Below the pieces are notes generated by a model. The model saw only the letters and a list, made by a program, of their open reading frames with translations. It searched no databases and had not been told where the DNA came from. A DNA stretch of 64,000 nucleotides from Methylovorus menthalis. Lineage in GTDB: Bacteria; Pseudomonadota; Gammaproteobacteria; Burkholderiales; Methylophilaceae. A program made the position numbers and the translations under genes. Positions 121-15,356 of this stretch are shown here, one piece after another. The DNA is taken from positions 62,001 to 126,000 of the forward strand of contig NZ_JAJAQH010000005.1 in the NCBI RefSeq assembly GCF_020523625.1. The letters are read 5' to 3'. Positions within the stretch are counted from its first letter, which is position 1. The number at the start of each line of letters is the position of its first letter.

Positions 121-927
121 ATGAGTATCGGTATTCGGGCCGCCATTGGCCTTAATCGTGTGGCCGGGCGCGTGCATTATCGCCAGCTCAAGCTGGCGGC
201 GTTTGTATCGCCCGTGCTGCTCTTGTTGGTGTGGGGCTGGGTCAGCCACCTGCAGCTGATCTCTCCGCAGTTGCTGGCATCGCCGCTGGAAGTGGCCGCC
301 ACGTTTGGCGAATTGCTGTCTTCGGGTGAGCTGCAGGAACATCTGACCAAAAGCCTGTCGCGGCTGACATTGGGCTACAGCATTGGTGCCTCTGCGGGCT
401 TGCTGTTTGGCATCCTGATGGCGCTCTCCCGAAACGTGGAAGCGCTGTGCGCGCCACTATTTCACGCCATACGCCAGATTCCCACTATCGCCTTGATCCC
501 AATTTTCATCCTGCTGCTGGGCGTGGATGAAAGCTTCAAGATCGCTATTGTCATCAAGGCCTCGTTCTTCACGGTGGCGCTGGCTGCCTATGAAGCCACC
601 AAGGGCGTGTCAGTGAACTACCTGGAAGTGGCGCGTGTGTACAAACTGCCCTGGACCACGCTGTATGGCAAGGTGATTATCCCGGCGATTTTCCCGCCGG
701 TGCTGACGGGTTTGCGCATTGCGTTTGCCCGCTCATGGACCGTGCTGGTCGCCGCCGAGTTGCTGGTGGCAGATAGTGGCCTGGGGCAGATGATGCAGAT
801 GGGCCGCGATATGTTCCGGCTGGATATTGTGCTGGTTGGGGTGGTGCTGACCGGGTTGATCGGTTTTTGCATTGATCGCAGTTTTAAGTGGGGTGAATCC
901 CATCTGGTGCGCTGGCGCGTTGCCTGA
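121..927 (+). CDS. ABC transporter permease, SsuC/TauC type
   Basis: Inner-membrane permease of 268 aa, the usual size for the nitrate/sulfonate/taurine permease family. About six hydrophobic segments can be read, starting near residues 25-45. The cytoplasmic EAA loop is present around residues 165-200 (EVARVYKLPW, then PAIFPPVLTGLRIAF), which contacts the ATPase subunit. The next gene is a second permease of the same family 13 bp downstream, so the pair could form a heterodimeric channel. No ATPase gene is visible; it is presumably upstream of the window. The surrounding genes point to an organosulfur substrate, but the substrate itself is an inference. Confidence 0.85.
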   Translation: MSIGIRAAIGLNRVAGRVHYRQLKLAAFVSPVLLLLVWGWVSHLQLISPQLLASPLEVAATFGELLSSGELQEHLTKSLSRLTLGYSIGASAGLLFGILMALSRNVEALCAPLFHAIRQIPTIALIPIFILLLGVDESFKIAIVIKASFFTVALAAYEATKGVSVNYLEVARVYKLPWTTLYGKVIIPAIFPPVLTGLRIAFARSWTVLVAAELLVADSGLGQMMQMGRDMFRLDIVLVGVVLTGLIGFCIDRSFKWGESHLVRWRVA

Positions 928-940
928 GGAGTTTGTAGTC

Positions 941-1735
941 ATGCGTTCAATTTCTTCTGTGTTGTCCAATCTGGGCCTGGGCCGTCGTGCGGTCGGACTT
1001 ATCTTGCCCATATTGCTGCTCTTGGGCTGGCAATATATGTCCACTCGTGGCGCCTCGTTTGCCTATGCCTTTTCGTCGATATCGCAAATGCAGGAGGCCC
1101 TGCGTGAGCTGATCGCCACTGGCGACCTGCAGGTCAATCTGGCGTCTAGTTTGCAGCGGGCACTGACCGGGCTCGCCATCGGCGGCACGTTTGGCCTGGT
1201 GCTGGGCGTTTCCATGGCCAGCTCCCGCATCATCGATACCTCGGTGGGGCCGCTGTACCATATCCTGCGTCAGGTGCCGCTCATGGGCCTGGTGCCGGTG
1301 TTCAGCCTGTGGCTGGGGAATGGCGATACCGCCAAGCTGTTTATTGTTTGCCTGTCGGCGTTTTTCCCGCTGGTGCTGGCCACCTATGAAAGCCTGCGCC
1401 AGGTTGATGGCAAATTTCTGGAAGTAGGCAATGTGCTCAAGTTGAGCCGTGCGCAGCAGTTCCGGCATATCCTGCTGCCCGCTGCCTTGCCCAATATCTT
1501 TACCGGCGTTTCGTTCGCGCTGGCCATGGCGTGGTTGTCTACCATCGGTAGCGAAATTCTGTTCAATGCCGGGGCTGGTCTGGGCAATCTGATGATGAAT
1601 GCCGAAATGGCCTCGCGCATGGATATCCTGGTGGTGGTGACCATACTGATCGGCGTGGTCGGATATCTGCTGACCTTTGTGCTGTATCGCATCACGGCCT
1701 ATCTTTTCCGCTGGCGCAAAGTCGCTAGCGAGTAG
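941..1735 (+). CDS. ABC transporter permease, SsuC/TauC type (second)
   Basis: Permease of 264 aa, paralogous to the preceding gene. The ATG at 941 is preferred because a GAGGA-type ribosome site lies just upstream, overlapping the stop region of the first permease; a longer reading would begin inside that gene. It has hydrophobic segments along its length and an EAA loop (EVGNVLKLSRAQQ, then LPAALPNIFTGVSFALA) near residues 155-190. The last 30 residues form a membrane segment followed by a basic tail. Two unequal permeases in one operon suggest a heterodimeric channel. Its likely role is import of a sulfonate or related sulfur compound. Confidence 0.85.
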   Translation: MRSISSVLSNLGLGRRAVGLILPILLLLGWQYMSTRGASFAYAFSSISQMQEALRELIATGDLQVNLASSLQRALTGLAIGGTFGLVLGVSMASSRIIDTSVGPLYHILRQVPLMGLVPVFSLWLGNGDTAKLFIVCLSAFFPLVLATYESLRQVDGKFLEVGNVLKLSRAQQFRHILLPAALPNIFTGVSFALAMAWLSTIGSEILFNAGAGLGNLMMNAEMASRMDILVVVTILIGVVGYLLTFVLYRITAYLFRWRKVASE

Positions 1736-1780: not shown

Positions 1781-2812
1781 ATGACCTACACCACCGAGTT
1801 TACTTACACCCGCTCTCCTGTTCCCACGCCATTAGGGCTGGCGATACAACTGGGCCTGCTGGAGCGGGAGTTTGCCGGGGATATCCCACTGCGCTCGCTG
1901 ATTGAGTCGGACAAACCCTCTGACCTGGTCTCGCACTTTGACCACCGGCTGCCCAATCTCTTTCGTCAGGGCGGCAATACACCCGCCATCTGGGCCAAGG
2001 CCAATGGCAGTGACACCCGGGTGATCGGCATCAGCTGGACCGACGAATACCAGGCCATTATCACGCTCCCTGGCTCTGGCATACGTACCGCCAAGGATCT
2101 CAAAGGCCGCAAGGTTGGCATTCCCATCCACCAGATTGCCAGCGACTACAATCGCGCCGCGGCGCTACGGGCTTTTTATGTGGCGCTGGAGCAGGCAGGC
2201 CTGGGCCTGCGCGATATCGAGCTGGTTGAGCTGCCGGATTCTGCCTATATCACCGTGAATGATATTGATCGCCCCGGTGGCTGGGGCCATGCGCGACACG
2301 GCTATGTGAACGAAGTCTATGCCTTGGTGCGCGGGGAAGTGGAAGCCATCTACGTGAAGGATGTGCGGGGTGCCGAGATCACCCATCTCTTGGGCGCCCA
2401 TATCGTGTTTGATCTGGGCTTTCATCCCGACCCCTATATACGCGTGAGCAACTGCGCCCCGCGACCATTGACCGTCAATGCCGAGACCATTGAGCAATAT
2501 CCCGATGTGGTTGAGCGTTTTTTACGCCAGGTAGTGACTGCTGGCTTATGGGCAAAAAAGAACCGCGAAGAAAGCCTGCGCCTGATCGGTCATGAAACCG
2601 GCTGGTCTGAAGCCTGGCTTGATAAAGTGCTGGGCCCCGAGTTTCACCAGAACCTGGTGATTACCCTGAATCATCAGGTGATTGAAGGTCTCACGATTGC
2701 CAAGAAATTCCTGCTTGAGCATCACTTCATCGAGCAGGATATCGACATCGCTGCCTGGATTGACCCTCTGCCGCTGGAGCGGGCGCATGACAATGTACGA
2801 AGGATTGCCTGA
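1781..2812 (+). CDS. DszB/SsuA-like protein with Ser at the desulfinase Cys position
   Basis: A 343-aa protein of the periplasmic-binding-protein fold with no signal peptide, so it should be cytosolic. It aligns by eye with DszB, the 2'-hydroxybiphenyl-2-sulfinate desulfinase: YTRSPVPTP at residues 9-17, SHFDHRLPNLFRQGG at 51-65, and a C-terminal GLWAKK...FHQNL region. DszB uses Cys27, His60 and Arg70. Here the His (H52) and Arg (R62) are kept with the same spacing of ten, but the Cys is Ser12 (codon TCT). Replacing this Cys by Ser is known to inactivate DszB, so this copy may bind rather than cleave its ligand. It follows two SsuC-type permeases, and an automatic pipeline would probably call it a substrate-binding protein. 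Its paralogue at 3645-4670 has the Cys. Confidence 0.7.
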   Translation: MTYTTEFTYTRSPVPTPLGLAIQLGLLEREFAGDIPLRSLIESDKPSDLVSHFDHRLPNLFRQGGNTPAIWAKANGSDTRVIGISWTDEYQAIITLPGSGIRTAKDLKGRKVGIPIHQIASDYNRAAALRAFYVALEQAGLGLRDIELVELPDSAYITVNDIDRPGGWGHARHGYVNEVYALVRGEVEAIYVKDVRGAEITHLLGAHIVFDLGFHPDPYIRVSNCAPRPLTVNAETIEQYPDVVERFLRQVVTAGLWAKKNREESLRLIGHETGWSEAWLDKVLGPEFHQNLVITLNHQVIEGLTIAKKFLLEHHFIEQDIDIAAWIDPLPLERAHDNVRRIA

Positions 2813-2831
2813 TGGTGTAGAACATAAGTAA

Positions 2832-2862
2832 TAAAAAAGCCTGCATGTGCAGGCTTTTTTAT
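2832..2862. terminator. Bidirectional rho-independent terminator
   Basis: AAAAAAGCCTGCATGTGCAGGCTTTTTT is an almost perfect stem with A-runs on one side and T-runs on the other. It lies between the converging stops of the DszB-like gene and the peroxiredoxin gene, so it can end transcription from both. Confidence 0.85.
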
Positions 2863-2880
2863 TACCGGATGTAGCGTGTG

Positions 2881-3522
2881 TTATTTGTTGGGCTGTGGTG
2901 TCAGGCGCAGATAAGGTCTGACGGTTTTAAAGCCTTTGGGGAATTTGGCCTTGAGGATATCGGGGTCCGTGAGCGAAGGCACGATGACCACATCTTCGCC
3001 GTCTTTCCAGTTAGCGGGGGTTGCTACGCTATGGTATTCGGTCAGTTGCAGCGAATCGATCACGCGCAGGATTTCATCAAAGTTGCGGCCGGTGCTGGCG
3101 GGGTAGGTGATGGTGAGGCGTATCTTTTTATGCGGGTCGATGACGAATACCGAGCGCACGGTGGCGGTTGCGCTGGCATTGGGGTGAATAAGGTCGTACA
3201 GGGTGGACACCTTGCGATCGGCATCGGCCAGGATAGGGAAGTTGACCGTGGTGCCCTGGGTCTCGTTGATGTCCTTGATCCAGCCATGGTGAGATTCGAC
3301 TGGGTCAACGGAAAGCGCCAACACTTTGACATTGCGCTTCTTGAATTCTTCGGCGAGTTTGGCGGTGGCACCGAGTTCGGTGGTGCACACGGGGGTGTAA
3401 TCGGCCGGATGTGAAAAGAGGATGCCCCAGCTGTCGCCCAGCCATTCATGGAATGCGATGGGGCCTATGCTGGAGTCCTGCGTAAAGTCGGGGGCGGTAT
3501 CGCCCAGTTTGAGAGAAGCCAT
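2881..3522 (-). CDS. lsfA: 1-Cys peroxiredoxin (Prx6/LsfA type)
   Basis: Thiol peroxidase of 213 aa that reduces hydrogen peroxide and organic peroxides. The peroxidatic Cys is in PADYTPVCTTE near residue 46, followed by the Prx6-type sequence SVDPVESHHGWIKDI and a C-terminal domain (RVIDSLQLTEYHSVATPANW). There is no resolving Cys of the 2-Cys type. The start has an AGGAGG ribosome site. In pseudomonads the homologue LsfA is induced by sulfate starvation and lies near sulfonate genes, which fits its place between two DszB-like genes; flavin monooxygenases leak peroxide and would need such an enzyme. The family call is firm; the gene symbol rests on context. Confidence 0.88.
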   Translation of the reverse strand: MASLKLGDTAPDFTQDSSIGPIAFHEWLGDSWGILFSHPADYTPVCTTELGATAKLAEEFKKRNVKVLALSVDPVESHHGWIKDINETQGTTVNFPILADADRKVSTLYDLIHPNASATATVRSVFVIDPHKKIRLTITYPASTGRNFDEILRVIDSLQLTEYHSVATPANWKDGEDVVIVPSLTDPDILKAKFPKGFKTVRPYLRLTPQPNK

Positions 3523-3644: not shown

Positions 3645-4670
3645 TCATGCGGCTTTTTGCTTGCGGGTACGCAACAGTTCGTCCAGTGGACCAGGCGCGA
3701 TCCACTCTGTCACGTCAAAATTCGATTTTAGGTAGCCCCATTTGAACAGGAAATCCTTGTAGGCACTAAGGCCGGCAATGGAAAGATCATCCAGCGAGGT
3801 CCCTTGCTTGAGATGGATATCGTTGCCGTAGGCTTTGCGTACCCATTCGTCCTTCGAGTGGGATTCCTTGGCAATGTAGCTCACGGTGTCAGCTTCATGC
3901 GCGGCAGCCCAGTCGGCGACATCCAGAATCTTGCTGAGGAAGCGCACTACGAGGTCTGGGCGCTCTTGCAAGAGGGCGTTGTCGACGGTAATCGGACGCG
4001 GCGCGCTGTTGTTGGCACGGGCGATAGGATCGGGGTGGTTGCGTACATCATAGAGCGTGGTCACGCCATGCTTGTGGGCTTCTTCCACGCCGCGCGCGCC
4101 CTTGACGTAGATGGCATCGACCTTGCCGGCTTTCAGGGCTTCAAACTCGGTGGCATAAGGCGTGTGGTTGGATGTCCAGCCCACGCCAGCGCCGCCCTGT
4201 GGCACGGGTAGGTCTACAAATACGATATCGTCGGCGCTCAGGCCTGCGGCTTCGAGCGAAACGACAATGCCGCGCAGCGCGCTGGCGCGTTGATGGTCGA
4301 TGCTGATGTTGTTAAGTGGCAATGCAATGCGCTTGCCTTTCAGTTCGGCCACGCTGGTGATGCCGGAGTCGGGCAGGGTGACCACCAGCTGCGCTTCATC
4401 CACCCAGTTAAGGCCGATGACGCGGGTATCGGTGCCATTGGCACGCGCCCAGATGGCAGGCACGCTACCGCCCTGGCGGAAGGAGTGTGGCAGGCGATGG
4501 TCGTAGTGAGACTCGCGCAGATCGGCGTCCGTCACTTCCTGCAGGGTTTTGATGGTGATGTGGTCAGGGGCGAATTCCTGGGCAAACCAGTTTTCGCGCG
4601 CGGCCAGGCCCAGGGGGGTAGGCACCGGGCAGCGGGTGTACCAGATGCTATCGATAGCGGTAACAGACAT
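3645..4670 (-). CDS. DszB-like sulfinate desulfinase with intact Cys-His-Arg set
   Basis: A 341-aa protein without a signal peptide, related to the protein at 1781-2812 along its whole length. The N-terminal motif is YTRCPVPTP with Cys14, and the second motif is SHYDHRLPHSFRQGG with His55 and Arg65. These match DszB Cys27, His60 and Arg70, including the ten-residue spacing and the following GG. DszB hydrolyses an aryl sulfinate to a phenol and sulfite. A desulfinase reaction is therefore plausible here, but the substrate is unknown and the overall similarity is distant. It has a GAGGAG ribosome site and a possible sigma-54 promoter about 67 bp upstream, and the peroxiredoxin gene follows 122 bp downstream. 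The alternative reading is an SsuA-type binding protein, which the lack of a leader argues against. Confidence 0.7.
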   Translation of the reverse strand: MSVTAIDSIWYTRCPVPTPLGLAARENWFAQEFAPDHITIKTLQEVTDADLRESHYDHRLPHSFRQGGSVPAIWARANGTDTRVIGLNWVDEAQLVVTLPDSGITSVAELKGKRIALPLNNISIDHQRASALRGIVVSLEAAGLSADDIVFVDLPVPQGGAGVGWTSNHTPYATEFEALKAGKVDAIYVKGARGVEEAHKHGVTTLYDVRNHPDPIARANNSAPRPITVDNALLQERPDLVVRFLSKILDVADWAAAHEADTVSYIAKESHSKDEWVRKAYGNDIHLKQGTSLDDLSIAGLSAYKDFLFKWGYLKSNFDVTEWIAPGPLDELLRTRKQKAA

Positions 4671-4872: not shown

Positions 4873-6732
4873 CTAGGCAACAGAGCGCAAGCCGTCAGGC
4901 TCGGGTACTGAGGCTTCTTCATAAGCTTTATAGAGCTGACTATAGGCACCGCCCTTGGCGATCAGGGTGCTGTGGTTGCCGATTTCCTTCACTTCGCCAT
5001 TCCAGATCACGGCAATGCGGTCGGCATCGCGGATGGTGGCGAGACGGTGGGCAATCACAATGGCGGTGCGGCCTTCGCACAGGCGACGGAAGGCCACTTG
5101 CACGCGGCGTTCGGTATGAATGTCTACCGCCGAGGTGGCTTCATCCAGCACCAATACTGATGGGTTGCCCAGATAGGCGCGCACCAGGCACACCAGCTGA
5201 CGCTGGCCATGGCTGAGGAAGGTTCCGAGCGGCCCGACTTCGGTCTGGTAACCCTGTGGCAATCGTTCCAGCACTTCATCCGCCCCCAGATCACGGGCGG
5301 CCCGAATCAGGTCTTCATTGCTGAAGTCAGGCGCCGCCAGCCGCAGGTTGTGCAACACGCTGCCAGAAAACAGCACGTTATCCTGCAGCACAACGCCCAC
5401 CTTGCGACGCAATACCTGTTGCGGGTACTCGCGCACGTCCACATCGTCCAGCAAGACGGCACCGCCCTGTACTTCATAAAAGCGCGTCAGCAATTGCACC
5501 AGCGTGCTTTTGCCATGGCCGGTCGGGCCGACGATGGCCAGTACTTCACCTGCCGCCACCTGCAGGTTGAGATGGCGGATCACCGGGCGGCTGCCATCCT
5601 GCTGGTAGCCAAACAGCACATCGCGAAACTCCACGCTGCCGCGTGGCAGCAAGGGGTTGCGGGGGGTCGCCGGATCATTGATTTCGGGCTCGGTATCCAG
5701 CATGAGAAAAATCCGCTGGGCCGACGAGGCGCCCGAGGTGTAGCGTTCCAAGAGCTCATTCAGCTCCTGCAGAGGCCCCAGGAAAAGATGCACATAGAAC
5801 AGACTCTGGGCGAGCTGGCCCACTGTCATTTCGTGCTGGGCAATGCCCAGGCCACCGGCGAGCAGCAGGGCGGCCTGCCCCACGGTGCTGAGCAGCTGCG
5901 TGGTCGGCAGGAACCAGCCCGTGCGGATATTGCCCTTGACCAGCGTATGGTTGAAGTCATATACCAGCGCGCTGTAACGCGCTTCGTTGGCGTCTTCCTG
6001 TACCGTTTGCTTGATGATGCGCACGCCGGAAACAGTCTCCACCAAGTGCGCGGTAAACCGCGCGCGGGCTTCGGCCACACGCGCCCAGTTGTGTTCCGAA
6101 ATGCGCTTGAACAGCCAGGTGCCCAGGATCAGCAATGGCGTGATACTGGCGAGGGCCAGCAGCAGCTTGGGCGAAATCCACCACAGGGCAAACGCCGCGC
6201 CCACCAGGCGCAGCACCGCAGACAGCAGCTCGGGCGGCCCCTGAATCAGCAGAGGTTCCAGCGCATCCACATCGCGGTCGGCGCGCGAGATGATGCGCCC
6301 GGCCTTGGTGCTATCAAAGTAGCGGATGCTGAGCGCCTGAATATGACGGAACACCCGTACACGCAGGCCGTTCAGAATATGGATGGCCGTGGAACCCGCC
6401 AGGTATTGTGAAACGGCGGCGAAGGCAAAGCGCAGTGCCCAGGTCAGGCCCATGCCCAGTGCCATCCATACCAGCAGCGGTGTATTCAGTACCAGCCCTT
6501 TGGCCGTCTGGATAAAACCGTGATCGATGACTTGGCCAACAAACCATGGCCGCAAAAAGATAATGCCGACCAGCACCACCTCAATGCCGATAATGGCGGC
6601 GATACGGCCTTTATACGGTGCCAGCAGCGGTAACAAACGCCAGAACATATTGCGGTCCAGGCTCTTTTTGGCGAGCTTTTGCTCCAGCTCAATGTCATTC
6701 AGGGCGCGCTCTTGGCGCAGGGACTCAGCCAT
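4873..6732 (-). CDS. ABC transporter half with fused membrane and ATPase domains (catalytic half)
   Basis: A 619-aa inner-membrane protein. An exporter-fold membrane domain (about residues 30-340) is followed by a nucleotide-binding domain. The ATPase motifs are Walker A GPTGHGKST, Walker B VLVLDEATSA with the catalytic Glu, switch His in IAHRLAT, and a deviating signature LSHGQ in place of LSGGQ. The upstream gene overlaps by 8 bp and has the complementary defects, so the two should form a heterodimer with one hydrolysing site. The operon begins with a TonB-dependent receptor. YbtPQ/IrtAB-type importers share this fold, so import of the receptor's substrate is as possible as export of a product or drug. 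The name can only be general. Confidence 0.85.
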   Translation of the reverse strand: MAESLRQERALNDIELEQKLAKKSLDRNMFWRLLPLLAPYKGRIAAIIGIEVVLVGIIFLRPWFVGQVIDHGFIQTAKGLVLNTPLLVWMALGMGLTWALRFAFAAVSQYLAGSTAIHILNGLRVRVFRHIQALSIRYFDSTKAGRIISRADRDVDALEPLLIQGPPELLSAVLRLVGAAFALWWISPKLLLALASITPLLILGTWLFKRISEHNWARVAEARARFTAHLVETVSGVRIIKQTVQEDANEARYSALVYDFNHTLVKGNIRTGWFLPTTQLLSTVGQAALLLAGGLGIAQHEMTVGQLAQSLFYVHLFLGPLQELNELLERYTSGASSAQRIFLMLDTEPEINDPATPRNPLLPRGSVEFRDVLFGYQQDGSRPVIRHLNLQVAAGEVLAIVGPTGHGKSTLVQLLTRFYEVQGGAVLLDDVDVREYPQQVLRRKVGVVLQDNVLFSGSVLHNLRLAAPDFSNEDLIRAARDLGADEVLERLPQGYQTEVGPLGTFLSHGQRQLVCLVRAYLGNPSVLVLDEATSAVDIHTERRVQVAFRRLCEGRTAIVIAHRLATIRDADRIAVIWNGEVKEIGNHSTLIAKGGAYSQLYKAYEEASVPEPDGLRSVA

Positions 6733-8509
6733 GATGGACTCCTACCAGTTCGCGATATTCCGCATGATGTTCAAGCAAATGGGTGTGCTGGCCTTCGGCG
6801 ACGATACGGCCTTTGTCCAGCACGGCGACGCGGTCTGCCAGCAGAATGGTGGATAGCTTGCTGGCAATCAGCAGCACGGTCACGGCCTGGCCGCTGGCAT
6901 CGCGCAGACCGCGAATGTTATCCAGTACGCGGCGTTCGGTAAGCGCATCCAGTGCACTGGTGGAATCGTCCAGAATCAGGATGCTGGGGTGTGCCAGGAA
7001 GGCGCGGGCCAGGCTGATGCGCTGGCGCTGGCCGCCAGATAGCGTGATGCCCCGATCACCGATGCGGGTCTGCAAGCCATCCGTCAAGGATTCCAGCACA
7101 TCGCGGGCGGCCGCCAGCTCCAGCGCTTCCAGCAACTCTGCTTCGCTGGCATGGGGTCTTGCCAGACGCAGGTTGGCTTCCAGCGTGTCAGAAAACAGAA
7201 AACTTTCTTGCGGTACGACATGGATGCGTCGCCGCAACTCATCGAGCCGGAATTGGTGTACGTTTTGCCACCCGGACGATGCGGAGCCGATATCCACGCT
7301 GCCATGGTTTGCATCCAGCAGTCTTGGCAGCAGGGCGGCCAGCGTGCTTTTGCCCGAGCCGGTAATGCCAACCAGCGCCAGGATTTCCCCCGGGGCGGCA
7401 CTTAAATGGCAATGCTGCAAAATAGCGTTGCCACCGGCGGCTTGCACGGTGACATCTTGCAAACGGAAACCCAGGGCGGCCTTGGGCACGGAGCCCTCAC
7501 CGCCGACAATGGTGGGCGATTCGTCCAGCAGCTCCCAGATACGGCCGGCAGAAGAGCGGGCATCGGCAAATACCTGCATCACGCGACCAATAGGCTCAAT
7601 GCGAAAGATCAGGGTATTGGCAACCAGCAGGGAGGCAATGAGCGCACCGACTTCCAGCTGACCTTGCTGGATCAGCCAGGCACCAAAGCCCAGAATCCAG
7701 ACCTGGGAAAGCGCGACCAGCGTTTGCGGCAGTGGCGTGTGGACGGCGGCATAAGCCAGCGCGGTGTGGGCATGGCGCACAAAGGTCTGCACAAACCCTT
7801 CAAAAGCGCCAACACGCGAGGACTCCAGGGCAAACGCCTTGATCACGCGCACCCCGTTAATCCCCTCGCTCAACTCCTGGTTAACCTGGTCATACGCTTG
7901 GCCCACAGCGCGATCCAGCGTGACCAGTTGATCGGTCTGGCGAATGAAAATGGCAATGCCTGCCAGCACGAAAGTCAGCGTGCCCAGGCCCAGCCATACG
8001 TTGTAAAGGCAGAGCAGGCTGATCGATACCAGTATCCACACGCTGGCCTCAAATACCTGGCGCCAGAAGTTGATCAGCGCATCGCGCACCTTGTCGGCAT
8101 CGCGTGTGGTGCGGGTAACCATTTCACCTACGCCATGCTGCAGGTGATAGGCAAGGTCCAGGCGCTGCACCTGCACCAGAATACGCTCACGCAGCAGGGA
8201 CAGGAGATCCTGGCCGATGATCAGCGACAGCACTCCGGCAAAGTATTGCAGGATGCCGCGGCCAACGGCGACGGCGATGATGATGGCGATCCAGTGCCAG
8301 GCCACGGCAAGATCATAGCGACCATCCGGCAGGAGCTTGATCGCTGTACCGTCATGCACGGCCTGCACGGCTTGGCCAATCAGCCAGAGCTGCCATGCCA
8401 TGGCGGCATTCACCAGTAAAAACAGAATGGCGGTCAGGCTGAAGCGCCATGGCATGGTGCGATAAAGCCACAGGCAACGCAGCAGCGGGTGTGTGGGGGA
8501 GATGGACAT
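6725..8509 (-). CDS. ABC transporter half with fused membrane and ATPase domains (degenerate-site half)
   Basis: A 594-aa membrane-ATPase fusion. The ATG at 8509 is chosen because GAGG lies six bases upstream; an ATG at 8521 would add four residues. The signature is canonical (LSGGQRQR) and Walker A is intact (GITGSGKST). However, Walker B ends LILDDSTSA, with Asp in place of the catalytic Glu, and the switch region reads IASKLST, lacking His. Its own ATP site is therefore expected to bind but hardly hydrolyse ATP. Together with the LSHGQ of its partner, this is the standard asymmetry of heterodimeric ABC proteins. It lies 68 bp downstream of the TonB-dependent receptor gene, in the same direction. 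Confidence 0.85.
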   Translation of the reverse strand: MSISPTHPLLRCLWLYRTMPWRFSLTAILFLLVNAAMAWQLWLIGQAVQAVHDGTAIKLLPDGRYDLAVAWHWIAIIIAVAVGRGILQYFAGVLSLIIGQDLLSLLRERILVQVQRLDLAYHLQHGVGEMVTRTTRDADKVRDALINFWRQVFEASVWILVSISLLCLYNVWLGLGTLTFVLAGIAIFIRQTDQLVTLDRAVGQAYDQVNQELSEGINGVRVIKAFALESSRVGAFEGFVQTFVRHAHTALAYAAVHTPLPQTLVALSQVWILGFGAWLIQQGQLEVGALIASLLVANTLIFRIEPIGRVMQVFADARSSAGRIWELLDESPTIVGGEGSVPKAALGFRLQDVTVQAAGGNAILQHCHLSAAPGEILALVGITGSGKSTLAALLPRLLDANHGSVDIGSASSGWQNVHQFRLDELRRRIHVVPQESFLFSDTLEANLRLARPHASEAELLEALELAAARDVLESLTDGLQTRIGDRGITLSGGQRQRISLARAFLAHPSILILDDSTSALDALTERRVLDNIRGLRDASGQAVTVLLIASKLSTILLADRVAVLDKGRIVAEGQHTHLLEHHAEYRELVGVHHG

Positions 8510-8577
8510 AATGCCTCGCATAAACGTAAAAAGCGGATACCCGGCACGTGGCCGGATATCCGCTACAGGGGCTCTGT

Positions 8578-11031
8578 TTAGAAACGCAGTGTCAGCGATA
8601 CGCCAGCGGTACGGGGCGCGCCATAGATGGCGGTGGAACCGGTTGCAGGCGTAGCTGGCAGAGCATGCGCCAGGTATTCCTTGTCAAACAGGTTGTTCAC
8701 ATACCCGGTAATGGCCAAGCGATCACCCTTACTGCTCCAGGTGACGCGCGCATTGACGATGGAGTAGCCATCCTGGCTCAGCAGTTTGTAATATGTGTTC
8801 TGCGCGGTGTTCTGCGCATTCACAAAGTAATACTGCTCGCTGGTGTAGCGCCAATCCAGGCTGGTCACGATCTTGTTGTCGTTCGCCAATGGAATGCGAT
8901 AGTTGGCCGATAGCAAGGTGTTGAGGTTGGGGGTACGTACCAGGTCGTTGCCGTTGTAGTTGGTGGTGCTGTTTTGTACCTGCAACTTGTCAAACTCGCT
9001 CGACTGCAAGCCGATATTGCCAATCAGGCGCAGATTGCTGGTAGGCAATGCTTCCACTTCAAACTCCGCGCCCTTTACCGTCGCGCTGTCTGCATTCTGC
9101 AGGTACGACACGGTGGTGGTGGCGCCAGGTGGTAGACCCACCACGTTGACTTGCACATCCTTGTAGTCGTAGTAGAACAGGGTCGTGTTGAAGTTAAGGC
9201 GGCCATTTAACCACTCGGACTTGTAGCCGATTTCATAGGCATCCAGTTTTTCCGGCTTTACCGTGTTCAGTGCAGCTGTCGCTGTCGCGGCCGTGTTAAA
9301 GCCGCCAGACTTTTCACCGTGCGCATACTTGAAGAAAGTGCGGCTGGTGTCGCTGATCTTGTATTCCGGCGTGAAATCGTAGGTGAAGGAGTTCCAGCGT
9401 TTTTCCTGATGCGCATCGAAATTGGTCACGAGGCCCGTTGGGTTGTTGTAGCTGCCGATGTAACTATCCCACCATTGGCCGAGGTTGCCCCAGCTGGCGG
9501 CGGTAATGCCAGCGCCCGAGGCCGAGCGGCGGCTGATATCCACTTCTTTCTTCTCGGTAGACCAGCGGGCACCCAAGGTGGTCTTGAATGCCTCGGTCCA
9601 GTTGTAGGTGGTGCTGCCAAACAACGCAAAGCTGGAAGCCTTGTGGTCGTAATCGGTATAGCTGAAGTTGTTCAGCGCATTGGTGCTGGTGCCGATAAAC
9701 GCAGGCACGCTGCCATTCGGTAAACGGGCGGCGGCGCTGTAGGAGTTGATGTCCTCCTTGAAAAAATGCACGCCCGACAGCCAGTTCCATCGGTCTTCAC
9801 GTGGTGACGCGAAGCGGAACTCCTGCGAGTACTGCTTGCTGTCGGCCTTGGTGTAGCCTCGTGACAATTCCAGCGCGCTATTGTCGGCGTCGTTCAGCAC
9901 GGTTTGGTCCCAGTCTTCGTATGCCGAGATCGAAGTAAGCGAGTACTTGCCCAAGTCCCATTTCAGGGTCAGCGATGCGCCGTTCTGTGTCGAGTCGCCG
10001 CTGTTTTCGGCATTCGAGCTCACATCCTTGCGGCTAGTGCTGGGCACATAACCAAAGCGGAAAGCGCCACCCGGGCCAGCTCCAATGATGGTCTGAATGC
10101 TGCCATCGGTCGTATAGTCCCGACGGTGCACATTAAGCAGGGCTTCCAAGTTATCGGTCAGCTGAAACAGCAATTGACCACGCACGGCGGTGTCCTTTAT
10201 CGATCCATCACGTTGGCCGGTGAACTGGTTACGGAAATAGCCGTCACGGTCCTGATCATAGAAAGACAAACGGCCCGCCACGCGCTCGCTGACAATTTCG
10301 CCACCTACTGCCCCTTCAAAAATACGCGAGCCATAGTTGCCGATATCGGCTTTTACATAATTTTCACCGGTATTGAACGAAGGCTTCTTGCTGATGATAT
10401 TCACCGCGCCGCCGGTGGTGTTCTTGCCCCACAGGGTGCCTTGCGGGCCACGCAGAACTTCCACCCGATCCAGGTCAAACAGCGGGAAGCCGCTAGCGGT
10501 GGCATTGCTGATGTACACATCATCCAGGTAGATACCTACCGGGCTGGCCATGTCGATCTGTTGCTGGCCGGAACCCACACCGCGAATCCACCAGCGGGGG
10601 CGACCATTGAACTGCGTATTGGCAGACGCATTGGGTACGTAGTTGAGTACCTCACCTGCGGATTTGCCTATCCCCTTGTCCTGCAGTTCCTTGCCGCTTA
10701 ATACAGTAATGGCGGTGGGCACCTTTTGAGCCGTTTCTTCACGTTTGTTGGCAGTTACTACCACACTGCCCAGTGAGGCTTCGCTTTCACCCTGGTTGTT
10801 CACTGCGGCTGGCTGGGCAACCGTCGCGTTGGTACTGGTGTCGGTCGTCGCGGCTTCGGACGATGTGGTCTGTGCGGCAGATGCGTCATTGGACGATGCG
10901 TTTCCGGCGGCATAGGCCTGACTGATGACCAGGCTGCCGATGAAGACGCTGCTTACTGCACGCAGTAAAGGTTTAACGATAAAGCGCGCTTGCGCTGGCT
11001 GATCTGATGAGCTGCTTGTTGTTATGGGCAT
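8578..11031 (-). CDS. TonB-dependent outer-membrane receptor (organosulfur island)
   Basis: A protein of 817 aa starting at 11031, where AGGAAC precedes the ATG; an upstream ATG at 11070 lacks a site. A long N-terminal leader is followed by a Ser/Ala/Thr-rich linker. The TonB box region reads SLGSVVVTANKREE, the plug contains GIYLDDVYI and VEVLRGPQGTLWGKN, and the protein ends in a beta-barrel with a terminal Phe (SLTLRF). It imports a substrate into the periplasm using TonB energy; the ExbD tail at the start of the window may belong to that system. It has its own sigma-54-type promoter and heads an operon with a two-gene ABC transporter. A sulfate ester, sulfonate or a metal chelate are all possible substrates; context favours an organosulfur compound. 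Confidence 0.88.
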   Translation of the reverse strand: MPITTSSSSDQPAQARFIVKPLLRAVSSVFIGSLVISQAYAAGNASSNDASAAQTTSSEAATTDTSTNATVAQPAAVNNQGESEASLGSVVVTANKREETAQKVPTAITVLSGKELQDKGIGKSAGEVLNYVPNASANTQFNGRPRWWIRGVGSGQQQIDMASPVGIYLDDVYISNATASGFPLFDLDRVEVLRGPQGTLWGKNTTGGAVNIISKKPSFNTGENYVKADIGNYGSRIFEGAVGGEIVSERVAGRLSFYDQDRDGYFRNQFTGQRDGSIKDTAVRGQLLFQLTDNLEALLNVHRRDYTTDGSIQTIIGAGPGGAFRFGYVPSTSRKDVSSNAENSGDSTQNGASLTLKWDLGKYSLTSISAYEDWDQTVLNDADNSALELSRGYTKADSKQYSQEFRFASPREDRWNWLSGVHFFKEDINSYSAAARLPNGSVPAFIGTSTNALNNFSYTDYDHKASSFALFGSTTYNWTEAFKTTLGARWSTEKKEVDISRRSASGAGITAASWGNLGQWWDSYIGSYNNPTGLVTNFDAHQEKRWNSFTYDFTPEYKISDTSRTFFKYAHGEKSGGFNTAATATAALNTVKPEKLDAYEIGYKSEWLNGRLNFNTTLFYYDYKDVQVNVVGLPPGATTTVSYLQNADSATVKGAEFEVEALPTSNLRLIGNIGLQSSEFDKLQVQNSTTNYNGNDLVRTPNLNTLLSANYRIPLANDNKIVTSLDWRYTSEQYYFVNAQNTAQNTYYKLLSQDGYSIVNARVTWSSKGDRLAITGYVNNLFDKEYLAHALPATPATGSTAIYGAPRTAGVSLTLRF

Positions 11032-11077
11032 GTTGGTTCCTGTTGAATGCAAATAAATAAACGACGACATGGGCTAG

Positions 11078-11534: not shown

Positions 11535-12227
11535 ATGTCGAACCCGCTTTCCGAGATTGACCTGATTTCGTACGTGGAAGATGCCAAGGCCGATGCCATT
11601 CATGCCTTTGGCATACTGAGCCGCAACGGTACCTTGTCTGCCAGTCTGACTTACCATGTCACCCACCTGGTGCCTGGGCACGATAAATTGCTGCATATCC
11701 GCTTCCCAGGCGGCCTGGCGCGTGATCAGTCGCCCAGCATCGCCATTACCGAGTTCTCCAAGCATCCCGACCATATCTTGCGTGAATCCCGACTGGACGC
11801 CGATACCGTCATCCATGCCCATACCAACTTCCTGTCGGCGTGGTCGCTGGCGCACAAGCCGTTTCCGATTTTGTATGTGGCCGCTGCCCGCCATCTGGCA
11901 GCCCGCGAGATTCCCAATCATCTTGATCGTACGCGCAGTGTTTACGATGTCATCAAGGAGCGGCTCGACCAGCATCCCGAACTGGCACCGCCGCCAGCAT
12001 TGCTGGAATCGAATGGTGGCGCCAATTTCTGGGGCAAGGGGATTATCAAAACCTCGGAGTTGATCCTGTTTATTGAGGAGGCCGCGCGCTATCAGGCGAT
12101 TGCCGAGCAGATCGGCGGCGCACAGCTGTATACCCCCGGGGCGCTGGAGTTGCAGTGGCAGCGTACTGGCCTGCTGGATAAAGCCAAGTCCTATACCGGG
12201 CGCTATCTGGCCGATATCGCTGGCTAA
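11535..12227 (+). CDS. Divergent class II aldolase/adducin-like protein
   Basis: A 230-aa cytosolic protein with the class II aldolase outline. It has an N-terminal SRNGTLSASLTYHV stretch, a central metal-binding VIHAHTNFLSAW with the His-X-His pair near residues 95-97, and a C-terminal helix after NGGANFWGKGI. In active members the third zinc ligand is the His of an 'NHG' turn; here that place reads NGG. The usual catalytic Glu in the 'PS-E' segment is also not evident. It may therefore catalyse something other than aldol cleavage, or not bind zinc normally. AAGGAG precedes the start, and a strong sigma-54-type promoter lies upstream. Its link with the nitroreductase-like and monooxygenase genes suggests a role in handling a carbon skeleton after desulfonation. 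Confidence 0.65.
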   Translation: MSNPLSEIDLISYVEDAKADAIHAFGILSRNGTLSASLTYHVTHLVPGHDKLLHIRFPGGLARDQSPSIAITEFSKHPDHILRESRLDADTVIHAHTNFLSAWSLAHKPFPILYVAAARHLAAREIPNHLDRTRSVYDVIKERLDQHPELAPPPALLESNGGANFWGKGIIKTSELILFIEEAARYQAIAEQIGGAQLYTPGALELQWQRTGLLDKAKSYTGRYLADIAG

Positions 12228-13111: not shown

Positions 13112-14173
13112 ATGACTATCCAGTTTTACTGGCACGTGCCTACGCGCGGCGATGGGCGTTTGGCGGACGCTGCCGTCAAGCTGCGCGGCGAGCGTAACGA
13201 TGAGCAACCCTATTTCACGGCAGGCGTGACGGACCCGCGTGGCCGCAAATTCAATTATTACGATCATCTGCATCAGATTGGCAAGGCGGCGGAGCTGGCA
13301 GGATTTGATGGCTTGTTGGTGCCCAACGACCCGGAGGGCGAAGAGTCCTGGATCGTGGCCGGCTATCTGACGCGCAATACACGCCGCGTCAAGGTATTGG
13401 CTACGTTTGATTCCGCACGAGGTTCTGCCGTGTATGCCGCCAAAAATGCCGTGAGTTACCAGCGCTTCAGCAATGGACGTTTTGCCTGGCAGATTGCCAC
13501 ATCGGCGAATGTGGCAGAGCGCCGTGCCAATGGTGATTTTATTGAAGATGCGGATATTCCACAGCGCACCGAGGAGTTTGTGACGGTGGCGCGGCATGTC
13601 ATCACCGAGACAGGCTATAGCTTCAAGGGACGTTTTTTTGAAGTGCTCGAAGGCGGTTTCAAAGGCCCGCTTTCCGGCCAGGCGGTGCCGCAGGTTTTCC
13701 TGACCGGGCAGACCGAGGCTGATCTTGCGGTATCGGCCAAGCTGGCTGATGTACATGTGTTTGAGGCGCTGCCACTGGCGGATTTGCAACCATATCTTGA
13801 GCGCTTGCAGGAGCTCTCCGCCAAGGCCGGCCGGCCGGTGCAGGCGGCGTTGCGCATTGATCTGCTGGTGCGCGAAACCGCCGCAGAGGCCGTGCACGAT
13901 GCCGCGCGTCAGGCGCGGCAGCAAGGGCAAACGGCGCTGCCAGACAAAGCCGGTCTGTGGGCTTTGCAAACGCCGGGGGCAGGCGCGGCACGCGCCACCC
14001 TGGTAGGCGATGCCGATCAGGTCACTGCTGCCCTGGAAGAGTATGCCTCTGCCGGCATTACCGTGTTCCAGCTGGGCGCTGTGCCCGCGCTGGAAGAAGC
14101 TTACCGCATAGGCGAACAGGTGCTGCCCGCCCTGCGTGCACGCCTTGGTTTATCTCAACAACAGGCCGCCTAA
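13112..14173 (+). CDS. SsuD-family flavin-dependent monooxygenase (LLM class), 353 aa
   Basis: TIM-barrel flavin monooxygenase of the bacterial-luciferase class that uses reduced FMN and oxygen to cleave C-S bonds in sulfonates and sulfones. The start ATG at 13112 has an AAGGAA site. Family signs are the N-terminal FYWHVPTRGDGR, the barrel strand GFDGLLVPNDP, the VSYQRFSNGRFAWQI block, and the C-terminal ITVFQLGAVPALEEAYRIGE. At 353 aa it is near the SsuD length. It is related to, but clearly different from, the next gene. It has no flavin-reductase domain, so it needs a partner reductase; none of the SsuE type is visible nearby. The substrate is not known. Confidence 0.85.
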   Translation: MTIQFYWHVPTRGDGRLADAAVKLRGERNDEQPYFTAGVTDPRGRKFNYYDHLHQIGKAAELAGFDGLLVPNDPEGEESWIVAGYLTRNTRRVKVLATFDSARGSAVYAAKNAVSYQRFSNGRFAWQIATSANVAERRANGDFIEDADIPQRTEEFVTVARHVITETGYSFKGRFFEVLEGGFKGPLSGQAVPQVFLTGQTEADLAVSAKLADVHVFEALPLADLQPYLERLQELSAKAGRPVQAALRIDLLVRETAAEAVHDAARQARQQGQTALPDKAGLWALQTPGAGAARATLVGDADQVTAALEEYASAGITVFQLGAVPALEEAYRIGEQVLPALRARLGLSQQQAA

Positions 14174-14183
14174 GGAGACGATG

Positions 14184-15356
14184 ATGGCGATTGATATTTT
14201 CTGGCGTATTCCTACGCATGGCGAGCCCAGCTCGCTTCGCAACAAACTTCACCATCGTGGCGATTGGTCGCAGCAGGAGGGTGATCACATTGTGCATCGC
14301 GGTCTTGCAGGCGGCGGTGGCGATGGTTTCAATAGCCTGGACTACATTGCCGAAGTGGCACGCGCAGCTGAAATCTCCGGCTTCCATGGTGGCTTGATTC
14401 CCTCATTCCCCATGACCGATGAGCCTTGGGCGATTTCGTCTTTCCTCGCGCGCGAAACCAGCACGTTCCGCTTCATGATCGCCTTTCAGCCGGGCTTCCT
14501 CAATCCGGTGACGGCCGCCCGCATGACGGCCAGTCTGCAACGCGCCAGCAATGGGCGTGGACTGTTCAACATCATCACTGGTGGCGGTGGTCCAGCCCAG
14601 CTGTGGTGGGGCGATGTGGCGCCGCATGATGACCGTTACGCGCGGACAACCGAGTTCTTGGATGTGCTGCGCAGCTTGTGGAAAGGTGGCAGCTACTCCC
14701 ATCAAGGCAAGTTCTACCAGCTGGAAAATGCGGCGCTGCCAGAACAGTTGCTGGGGCAGGATTTCCCGGAAATCTATTTTTCCGGTTCATCGGATGCTGC
14801 CTTGGTCTCTGCCTCCCAGCACGCTGACTTTTATCTCTCCTGGCTGGAGCCTTTTGACCAGCTCAAGGAGAAGTTTGACAAGGTAAAAGAGAAAACCGAC
14901 AAGCTGGGTCGCAAGGTCAAATGCGCTGTGCGGGTGGATATCGTGGCACGCGCCACGGAAGAAGAAGCCTGGCGCGAAGTCCGCCGTGGCTTTGAAAACC
15001 TGAGTGATGCCGACAAAGACCGCTATGCGCGCTTTGCCCAGCAGACAGGGGATTCGGTCGGCGCCAACCGGCAGCGCAGCAATGCCCCGAAGAATCTGGA
15101 CAATTACCAGGACTTTATCCTGCACCCTAACGTCTGGTCCGGCTTCAGCCTGCTGCGTGGCGGGCAGACCAACGGTATTGTCGGCAGCTACGAGCAGGTT
15201 GCCGAGCGGCTGGATGATCTGGTGAGACTGGGTGCCGATTCTTTTATTCTCGCCAGCACGCCACATCTGGAAGAAGCTTACCGGGTGGGCGAAGAGGTGC
15301 TGCCGCTGGTACAAGGCCATAGTGCCAGAAACTCGGTATTGCGCGCCGTAGGCTGA
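14184..15356 (+). CDS. SsuD-family flavin-dependent monooxygenase (LLM class), 390 aa
   Basis: Second luciferase-class monooxygenase, closer to SsuD in layout. It has FWRIPTHGEP at the start, LQRASNGRGLFNIITGGGG near residue 130, IYFSGSSDAALVSASQHAD near 200, the DSVGANRQRS segment corresponding to the conserved Arg region of SsuD, and ADSFILASTPHLEEAYRVGE near the end. Two ATGs lie side by side at 14181 and 14184; the second is preferred because AAGGAG is then six bases away. The SsuD active-site Cys ('RSCEDAW') is not kept here (FPMTDEPW). It follows the sister gene by 10 bp, so the two are co-expressed and may act on different sulfonates or on successive steps. Confidence 0.87.
   Translation: MAIDIFWRIPTHGEPSSLRNKLHHRGDWSQQEGDHIVHRGLAGGGGDGFNSLDYIAEVARAAEISGFHGGLIPSFPMTDEPWAISSFLARETSTFRFMIAFQPGFLNPVTAARMTASLQRASNGRGLFNIITGGGGPAQLWWGDVAPHDDRYARTTEFLDVLRSLWKGGSYSHQGKFYQLENAALPEQLLGQDFPEIYFSGSSDAALVSASQHADFYLSWLEPFDQLKEKFDKVKEKTDKLGRKVKCAVRVDIVARATEEEAWREVRRGFENLSDADKDRYARFAQQTGDSVGANRQRSNAPKNLDNYQDFILHPNVWSGFSLLRGGQTNGIVGSYEQVAERLDDLVRLGADSFILASTPHLEEAYRVGEEVLPLVQGHSARNSVLRAVG

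Follow-up and report, generated by a model that had tools for sequence, protein, structure and literature searches.

A natural serine counterpart of the DszB C27S mutant encoded at the end of a predicted organosulfur uptake operon in Methylovorus menthalis

Here we describe a protein of Methylovorus menthalis, a methanol-eating bacterium, in which the catalytic cysteine of the desulfinase DszB is replaced by a conserved serine, so that nature has made the change known from the laboratory mutant C27S and has kept it. The protein, P0001, is encoded in the window (the whole stretch of DNA analysed, 64,000 nucleotides; Table 1) and, as judged from its sequence, is a cytosolic member of the DszB family whose gene comes last in an operon for organosulfur uptake. 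The reading we prefer, with less than even confidence, is that P0001 is a cytosolic sulfinate- or sulfonate-binding pseudoenzyme without DszB chemistry, most plausibly one that reports to the importer; an enzyme whose catalytic cysteine has been relocated is nearly as likely. The family and the fold are known, as is C27S as a laboratory mutant, and in the literature searched we found no description of a natural Cys-less DszB, of a conserved natural counterpart of C27S, of repeated independent replacements of this cysteine, of a subfamily-specific second cysteine or of the P0001 gene cluster. In the biodesulfurisation of fuel, DszB catalyses the slow step. The recurrence of cysteine replacement beside Cys-bearing paralogues offers material for testing how an enzyme with the fold of a binding protein reverts to a binder, whether a sulfonate importer can be tuned by a binder in the cytosol and whether the site of a catalytic thiol can shift, and it cautions that matches to DszB-like or "ABC substrate-binding" proteins are not all desulfinases or periplasmic proteins.

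Table 1. Positions of P0001, its site codons and neighbouring features (window positions, or positions on the upstream contig L032 where so marked)
Feature	Position	Strand	Remark
SsuC-type ABC permease 1	121..927	+	Pfam BPD_transp_1 E 9e-22; best NCBIfam match SsuC, 147 bits, under its 347 cut-off
SsuC-type ABC permease 2	941..1735	+	Pfam BPD_transp_1 E 1e-24; NCBIfam SsuC/SaoP-like, under cut-offs
P0001, DszB-family protein, Ser12 for catalytic Cys	1781..2812	+	343 aa
Codon 12, TCT (Ser)	1814..1816	+	Aligned with DszB Cys27
Codon 52 (His)	1934..1936	+	Aligned with DszB His60
Codon 62 (Arg, RxGG motif)	1964..1966	+	Aligned with DszB Arg70
Codon 225, TGC, only cysteine of P0001	2453..2455	+	Three residues before return hinge strand 228-233 (model)
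Strong hairpin between convergent genes	2827..2866	.	MFE -24.6 kcal/mol, z -7.2
Peroxiredoxin resembling 1-Cys LsfA type	2881..3522	-	Sequence reading
P0002, DszB-family paralogue, Cys at catalytic position	3645..4670	-	Divergent paralogue
Class II aldolase-like protein	11535..12227	+	Same cluster; Pfam Aldolase_II E 2e-8
Luciferase-like (SsuD/SfnG-type) monooxygenase 1	13112..14173	+	Pfam Bac_luciferase E 5e-36
Luciferase-like (SsuD-type) monooxygenase 2	14181..15356	+	Pfam Bac_luciferase E 2e-57
Third paralogue, Cys at catalytic position	L032:12764-13807		About 5 kb upstream of the window
Importer ATPase	L032:15193-16053		Separate gene, unfused to P0001

Relationship of P0001 to DszB and conservation of the serine

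P0001 matched DszB (2'-hydroxybiphenyl-2-sulfinate desulfinase; PDB entries 2DE2 and 2DE3) over its full length in a search of PDB sequences (phmmer E = 3e-16; E = 3e-42 with the family profile), at about 25% identity. The AlphaFold2 model, built with 64 family rows (pLDDT 93.8, pTM 0.91), has the type II binding-protein fold, and its best PDB match was 2DE3, the C27S form of DszB with substrate (Z 33, rmsd 2.7 over 310 residues), followed by DszB and then by 3UIF, SsuA and TauA (Z 20-26), with Thi5 and the cytosolic regulatory domains of NrtC and CmpC appearing near Z 19. Alignment confirmed, coordinates included, what the first-pass annotation had noticed, namely that codon 12 (TCT) encodes Ser where the paralogue and DszB have Cys, with His52 and Arg62 kept. 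This serine, which lies in the N-terminal stretch MTYTTEFTYTRS12PVPT (start of the reading frame: MTYTTEFTYTRSPVPT), also aligns with Ser27 of the C27S mutant chain, and it takes the place of the catalytic cysteine in P0001 and in every orthologue. The counterparts of DszB His60 and Arg70 are both present, the arginine within an RxGG motif that reads R62-Q-G-G. DszB Ser25, which modulates His60, corresponds to Thr10 in P0001, as in nearly all Proteobacterial members, and P0001 has in addition a cysteine at position 225. Other likenesses to DszB are the lack of a signal peptide and the SsuD/SfnG-type luciferase-like monooxygenases encoded nearby, the second of which scored 274 bits, under the cut-off, against the NCBIfam alkanesulfonate monooxygenase model.

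The first-pass annotation had left it to orthologues to decide whether the serine is conserved, and it is: a search of 150 Methylophilaceae genomes yielded five orthologues including P0001 itself (the others being 95, 95, 76 and 66% identical to it; three of the five belong to the genus of Methylovorus mays), all with Ser12 and none with Cys. The codons are TCT, TCC, TCT, TCA and TCA, and these three TCN codons imply synonymous turnover while the serine persisted. Values of dN/dS among three congeners ranged between 0.037 and 0.050 (about 0.045), similar to those of the Cys paralogue (0.03-0.05). Because the serine is present in five genomes under three codons, with intact frames and purifying selection on the gene, we rule out sequencing error and gene decay; nothing that we found favoured error, a recent mutation or a pseudogene, and the chance of any of these is negligible.

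Repeated replacement of the cysteine in the family

To place Ser12 in the history of the family we used a set of about 180 aligned sequences, drawn from one scan of GTDB genomes and from local searches, in which the residue at the catalytic position is Cys in 149, Ser in 25, Gly in 3, Arg in 2 and Pro in 1. The serine rows form three separate clades in the tree, these being P0001 and its kin, a Burkholderiales/Jeongeupia group with the motif ARSPVPT, and a Pseudomonas copy with THSPVPT; the glycine copies are from Duganella, and the arginine and proline copies come from kin of Massilia and Paraburkholderia, respectively. A single clade joining P0001 with the ARS rows was rejected by the AU test (p-AU = 5e-7), which rules out one shared origin for all serine copies, and the sequences point to repeated replacement of the cysteine, three times by Ser and also by Gly, Arg and Pro. 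Since DszB and the deep branches of the family have Cys and the serine rows sit in nested clades, Ser12 is most simply derived from Cys within the P0001 lineage. The same distribution bears on the suggestion, made in the first-pass annotation, that P0001 could be a binder ancestral to the enzyme. The fold, which is that of sulfonate-binding proteins, agrees with a serine form older than the Cys enzyme, but the deep cysteines, the separate origins and the rejected common clade run against it; the simplest history is one of cysteine loss, though parsimony leaves part of the P0001 subfamily ambiguous between losses and regains. We consider this ancestral order very improbable.

At the active site P0001 differs by the loss of the cysteine alone, with Thr10 and His52 retained, whereas in the ARS clade Thr10 is gone from 16 of 16 members and His52 from 14 of 16. 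Members of the latter clade (L045-L057, L062, L044, L049, L120) nearly always keep RxGG, and in Burkholderia the gene adjoins an exported binding protein and permeases. Pseudomonas-type loci (L078, L081, L131-L136) carry, in every locus sampled, tandem DszB-like genes with WYTRCPVPT and WYTHSPVPT, an independent natural Cys/Ser pair whose serine copy has also changed Asn224 to Ile.

The gene cluster itself was seen again in genomes ranging from Methylophilaceae to Burkholderia, Massilia and Jeongeupia, where often one of its copies lacks the Cys. It comprises a sigma-54 activator, luciferase-like monooxygenases, two or three DszB-like genes, a binding protein, permeases, an ATPase and a class II aldolase, to which TonB/ExbBD and a TonB-dependent receptor are often added. 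The PLSDB record that covers the Burkholderia arboris locus has no annotation there. In Methylovorus, Burkholderia/Paraburkholderia and Duganella, non-Cys copies repeatedly have a same-strand transporter gene as neighbour. When the sequences were thinned to 85% identity, with related rows that are not independent, such a neighbour was found for 6 of 12 non-Cys copies and for 14 of 68 Cys copies, so that linkage to transporters is a tendency of the non-Cys copies and not unique to them.

The operon and the predicted location of P0001

Read from the upstream contig into the window, the gene order is sigma-54 activator, class II aldolase-like gene, Cys paralogue, exported binding protein, ATPase, TonB, ExbB, ExbD, two permeases and P0001. 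The gene stands directly after the two SsuC-type permeases, as had been noted at first reading, starting 45 bp past the second (which was searched as a longer TTG frame, 872-1735, with homology starting within 941-1735). The hairpin that follows P0001 was listed on the minus strand by the scan and has a T run on the plus strand too; it probably terminates transcription in both directions and marks the end of the operon, which on this sequence evidence consists of the ATPase, TonB-ExbB-ExbD, the two permeases, P0001 and the terminator. A dedicated TonB-ExbB-ExbD set inside a sulfonate importer operon (L032:16050-18000 to window position 106) and TonB-dependent receptors nearby (window 8578-11070) together suggest active outer-membrane uptake of an organosulfur compound. 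Sigma-54-like (-24/-12) motifs were observed in the intergenic regions that precede the genes for the aldolase, the divergent activator and the ATPase (L032:11934, 11974 and 15117); by motif count the pattern is overall no commoner than chance.

That P0001 lacks a signal peptide follows from its frame, in which just two codons, neither of them a start, separate an in-frame stop from the ATG, and from its N-terminus (MTYTTEFTYTRS), which is not hydrophobic. Signal peptides are also absent, as judged by eye, from the non-Cys copies elsewhere. Another gene of the importer operon codes for an exported binding protein, an orthologue (E = 1.4e-136) of PDB 3UIF, a structure solved as periplasmic SsuA of Methylobacillus flagellatus. 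The absence of a signal peptide and the presence of this other protein led us to reject P0001 as the importer's periplasmic carrier; the first-pass annotation had suggested a ligand sensor or carrier. P0001 thus shares with SsuA and TauA (2X26, 6SSY, 3UIF) the fold and a sulfonate-type ABC importer neighbourhood, but differs from them in having no signal peptide and in scoring 84.3 bits against the SsuA_fam model of NCBIfam, about half of its 163.5-bit cut-off.

Proposed binding without DszB chemistry, or another chemistry

The C27S mutant of DszB is reported to be inactive, with a computed barrier that rises from 31.4 to 37.4 kcal/mol, and its crystal structure holds the substrate near His60 and Arg70 (PMC6100217), in agreement with the first-pass annotation, which stated that the change kills catalysis and keeps ligand binding. 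By analogy, loss of DszB-type catalysis is plausible in P0001, and we infer that Arg62 and His52 would still hold a sulfinate or sulfonate in the cleft between the domains and that the protein would carry out no DszB reaction at residue 12. The family profile match and the closeness of the model to 2DE3 argue for this binder, as do the conserved serine under purifying selection and the cytosolic location indicated by the absent signal peptide in an operon that has its own exported binding protein. The Burkholderiales non-Cys clade, having lost Thr10 and usually His52, looks as pseudoenzymes are expected to look, and the recurrence of non-Cys copies beside same-strand transporter genes points the same way, although such adjacency is not special to them.

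Encoded last in the importer unit, P0001 may inform the importer of the substrate or product present inside the cell, a role suggested by NrtC and CmpC, whose cytosolic binding-protein-like domains are thought to act in this way. P0001 resembles these regulatory domains in its fold, its cytosolic side and its association with an importer, but it is a separate protein whereas they are fused to the ATPase. Truncation of NrtC abolishes the ammonium inhibition of uptake (PMC6603209).

The difficulty for the binder is that a site conserved in all its remaining DszB residues, with a new conserved cysteine added, fits a working enzyme equally well. Ser12 could then serve another reaction or substrate in an enzyme that has been neofunctionalised and works without a thiol, as the conserved site, the strong purifying selection and the varied chemistry of enzymes on this fold among the structural matches (Thi5, MqnD and a decarboxylase) would allow. 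However, in the columns that we inspected Cys225 is the only conspicuous candidate for a conserved replacement residue, and C27S kills DszB, so that we regard such an enzyme as unlikely.

Cys225 and a possible relocation of the thiol

Cys225, in the context SNCAPRP, is invariant in all Methylophilaceae orthologues of P0001 and occurs in every Duganella Gly12 copy; it coexists with Cys12 in sister sequences from four Niveispirillum-family genomes and one Caulobacter, and all other aligned family members have Gly, Ala, Ser or, once, Gln at this position. Its segment aligns with the CCCFC motif of the HMP-phosphate synthase Thi5 (NMT1), reported to be essential (PMC10512395), and with TauA Gly200, four to five residues ahead of Leu204 and Asp205, which contact the ligand (PMC6906117). 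From the hinge-strand position and these counterparts Cys225 plausibly faces the cleft. Thi5 is likewise an enzyme on the binding-protein fold, but P0001 has a single cysteine in place of the CCCFC motif and the sequence similarity between them is marginal.

As a conserved novelty of the subfamily, Cys225 raises the prospect that catalysis has moved and not vanished. P0001 would then still be desulfinase-like, with Cys225 giving the proton or nucleophile once supplied by Cys12, and its ancestors would have had both cysteines before Cys12 became Ser in Methylovorus and its kin and Gly in Duganella. Cys225 being the sole cysteine, its subfamily-specific retention, also in the two-Cys sisters and the Gly12 copies, the cleft position of the segment in relatives and the retention of all other catalytic residues make this a possibility to be taken seriously, if not the one we favour. 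Against it, L185, a Duganella relative, combines Cys12 with Ser225, the Pro12 clade has Gly225, the other serine lineages lost Cys12 without having Cys225, and an independent-pairs test, for which there were too few independent pairs, did not support the idea that Cys12 loss and Cys225 are coupled. The full evolutionary sequence, in which a second cysteine was gained elsewhere on the cleft, extant two-Cys intermediates survive in Niveispirillum and Caulobacter, and Cys12 was lost to Ser in Methylovorus with a parallel change to Gly in Duganella, would mean that a catalytic cysteine has been relocated in nature, and we hold it to be rather doubtful.

Other genes in the neighbourhood

The peroxiredoxin encoded after the terminator adjoins the Cys paralogue in Methylophilus (L064) and lies between both copies in Methylovorus mays (L034). 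On its other side P0002 is adjoined by two ABC exporter half-transporters and a TonB-dependent receptor (window 4873-8521), an arrangement that recurs in Methylovorus and Methylophilus, the ABC pair being present also in Methyloversatilis. Farther along, between 17511 and 39666, the translations read as CobT-, CobS-, CbiB-, CobQ- and CobB-like cobalamin-type proteins, a CobN-like protein and TonB-dependent receptors.
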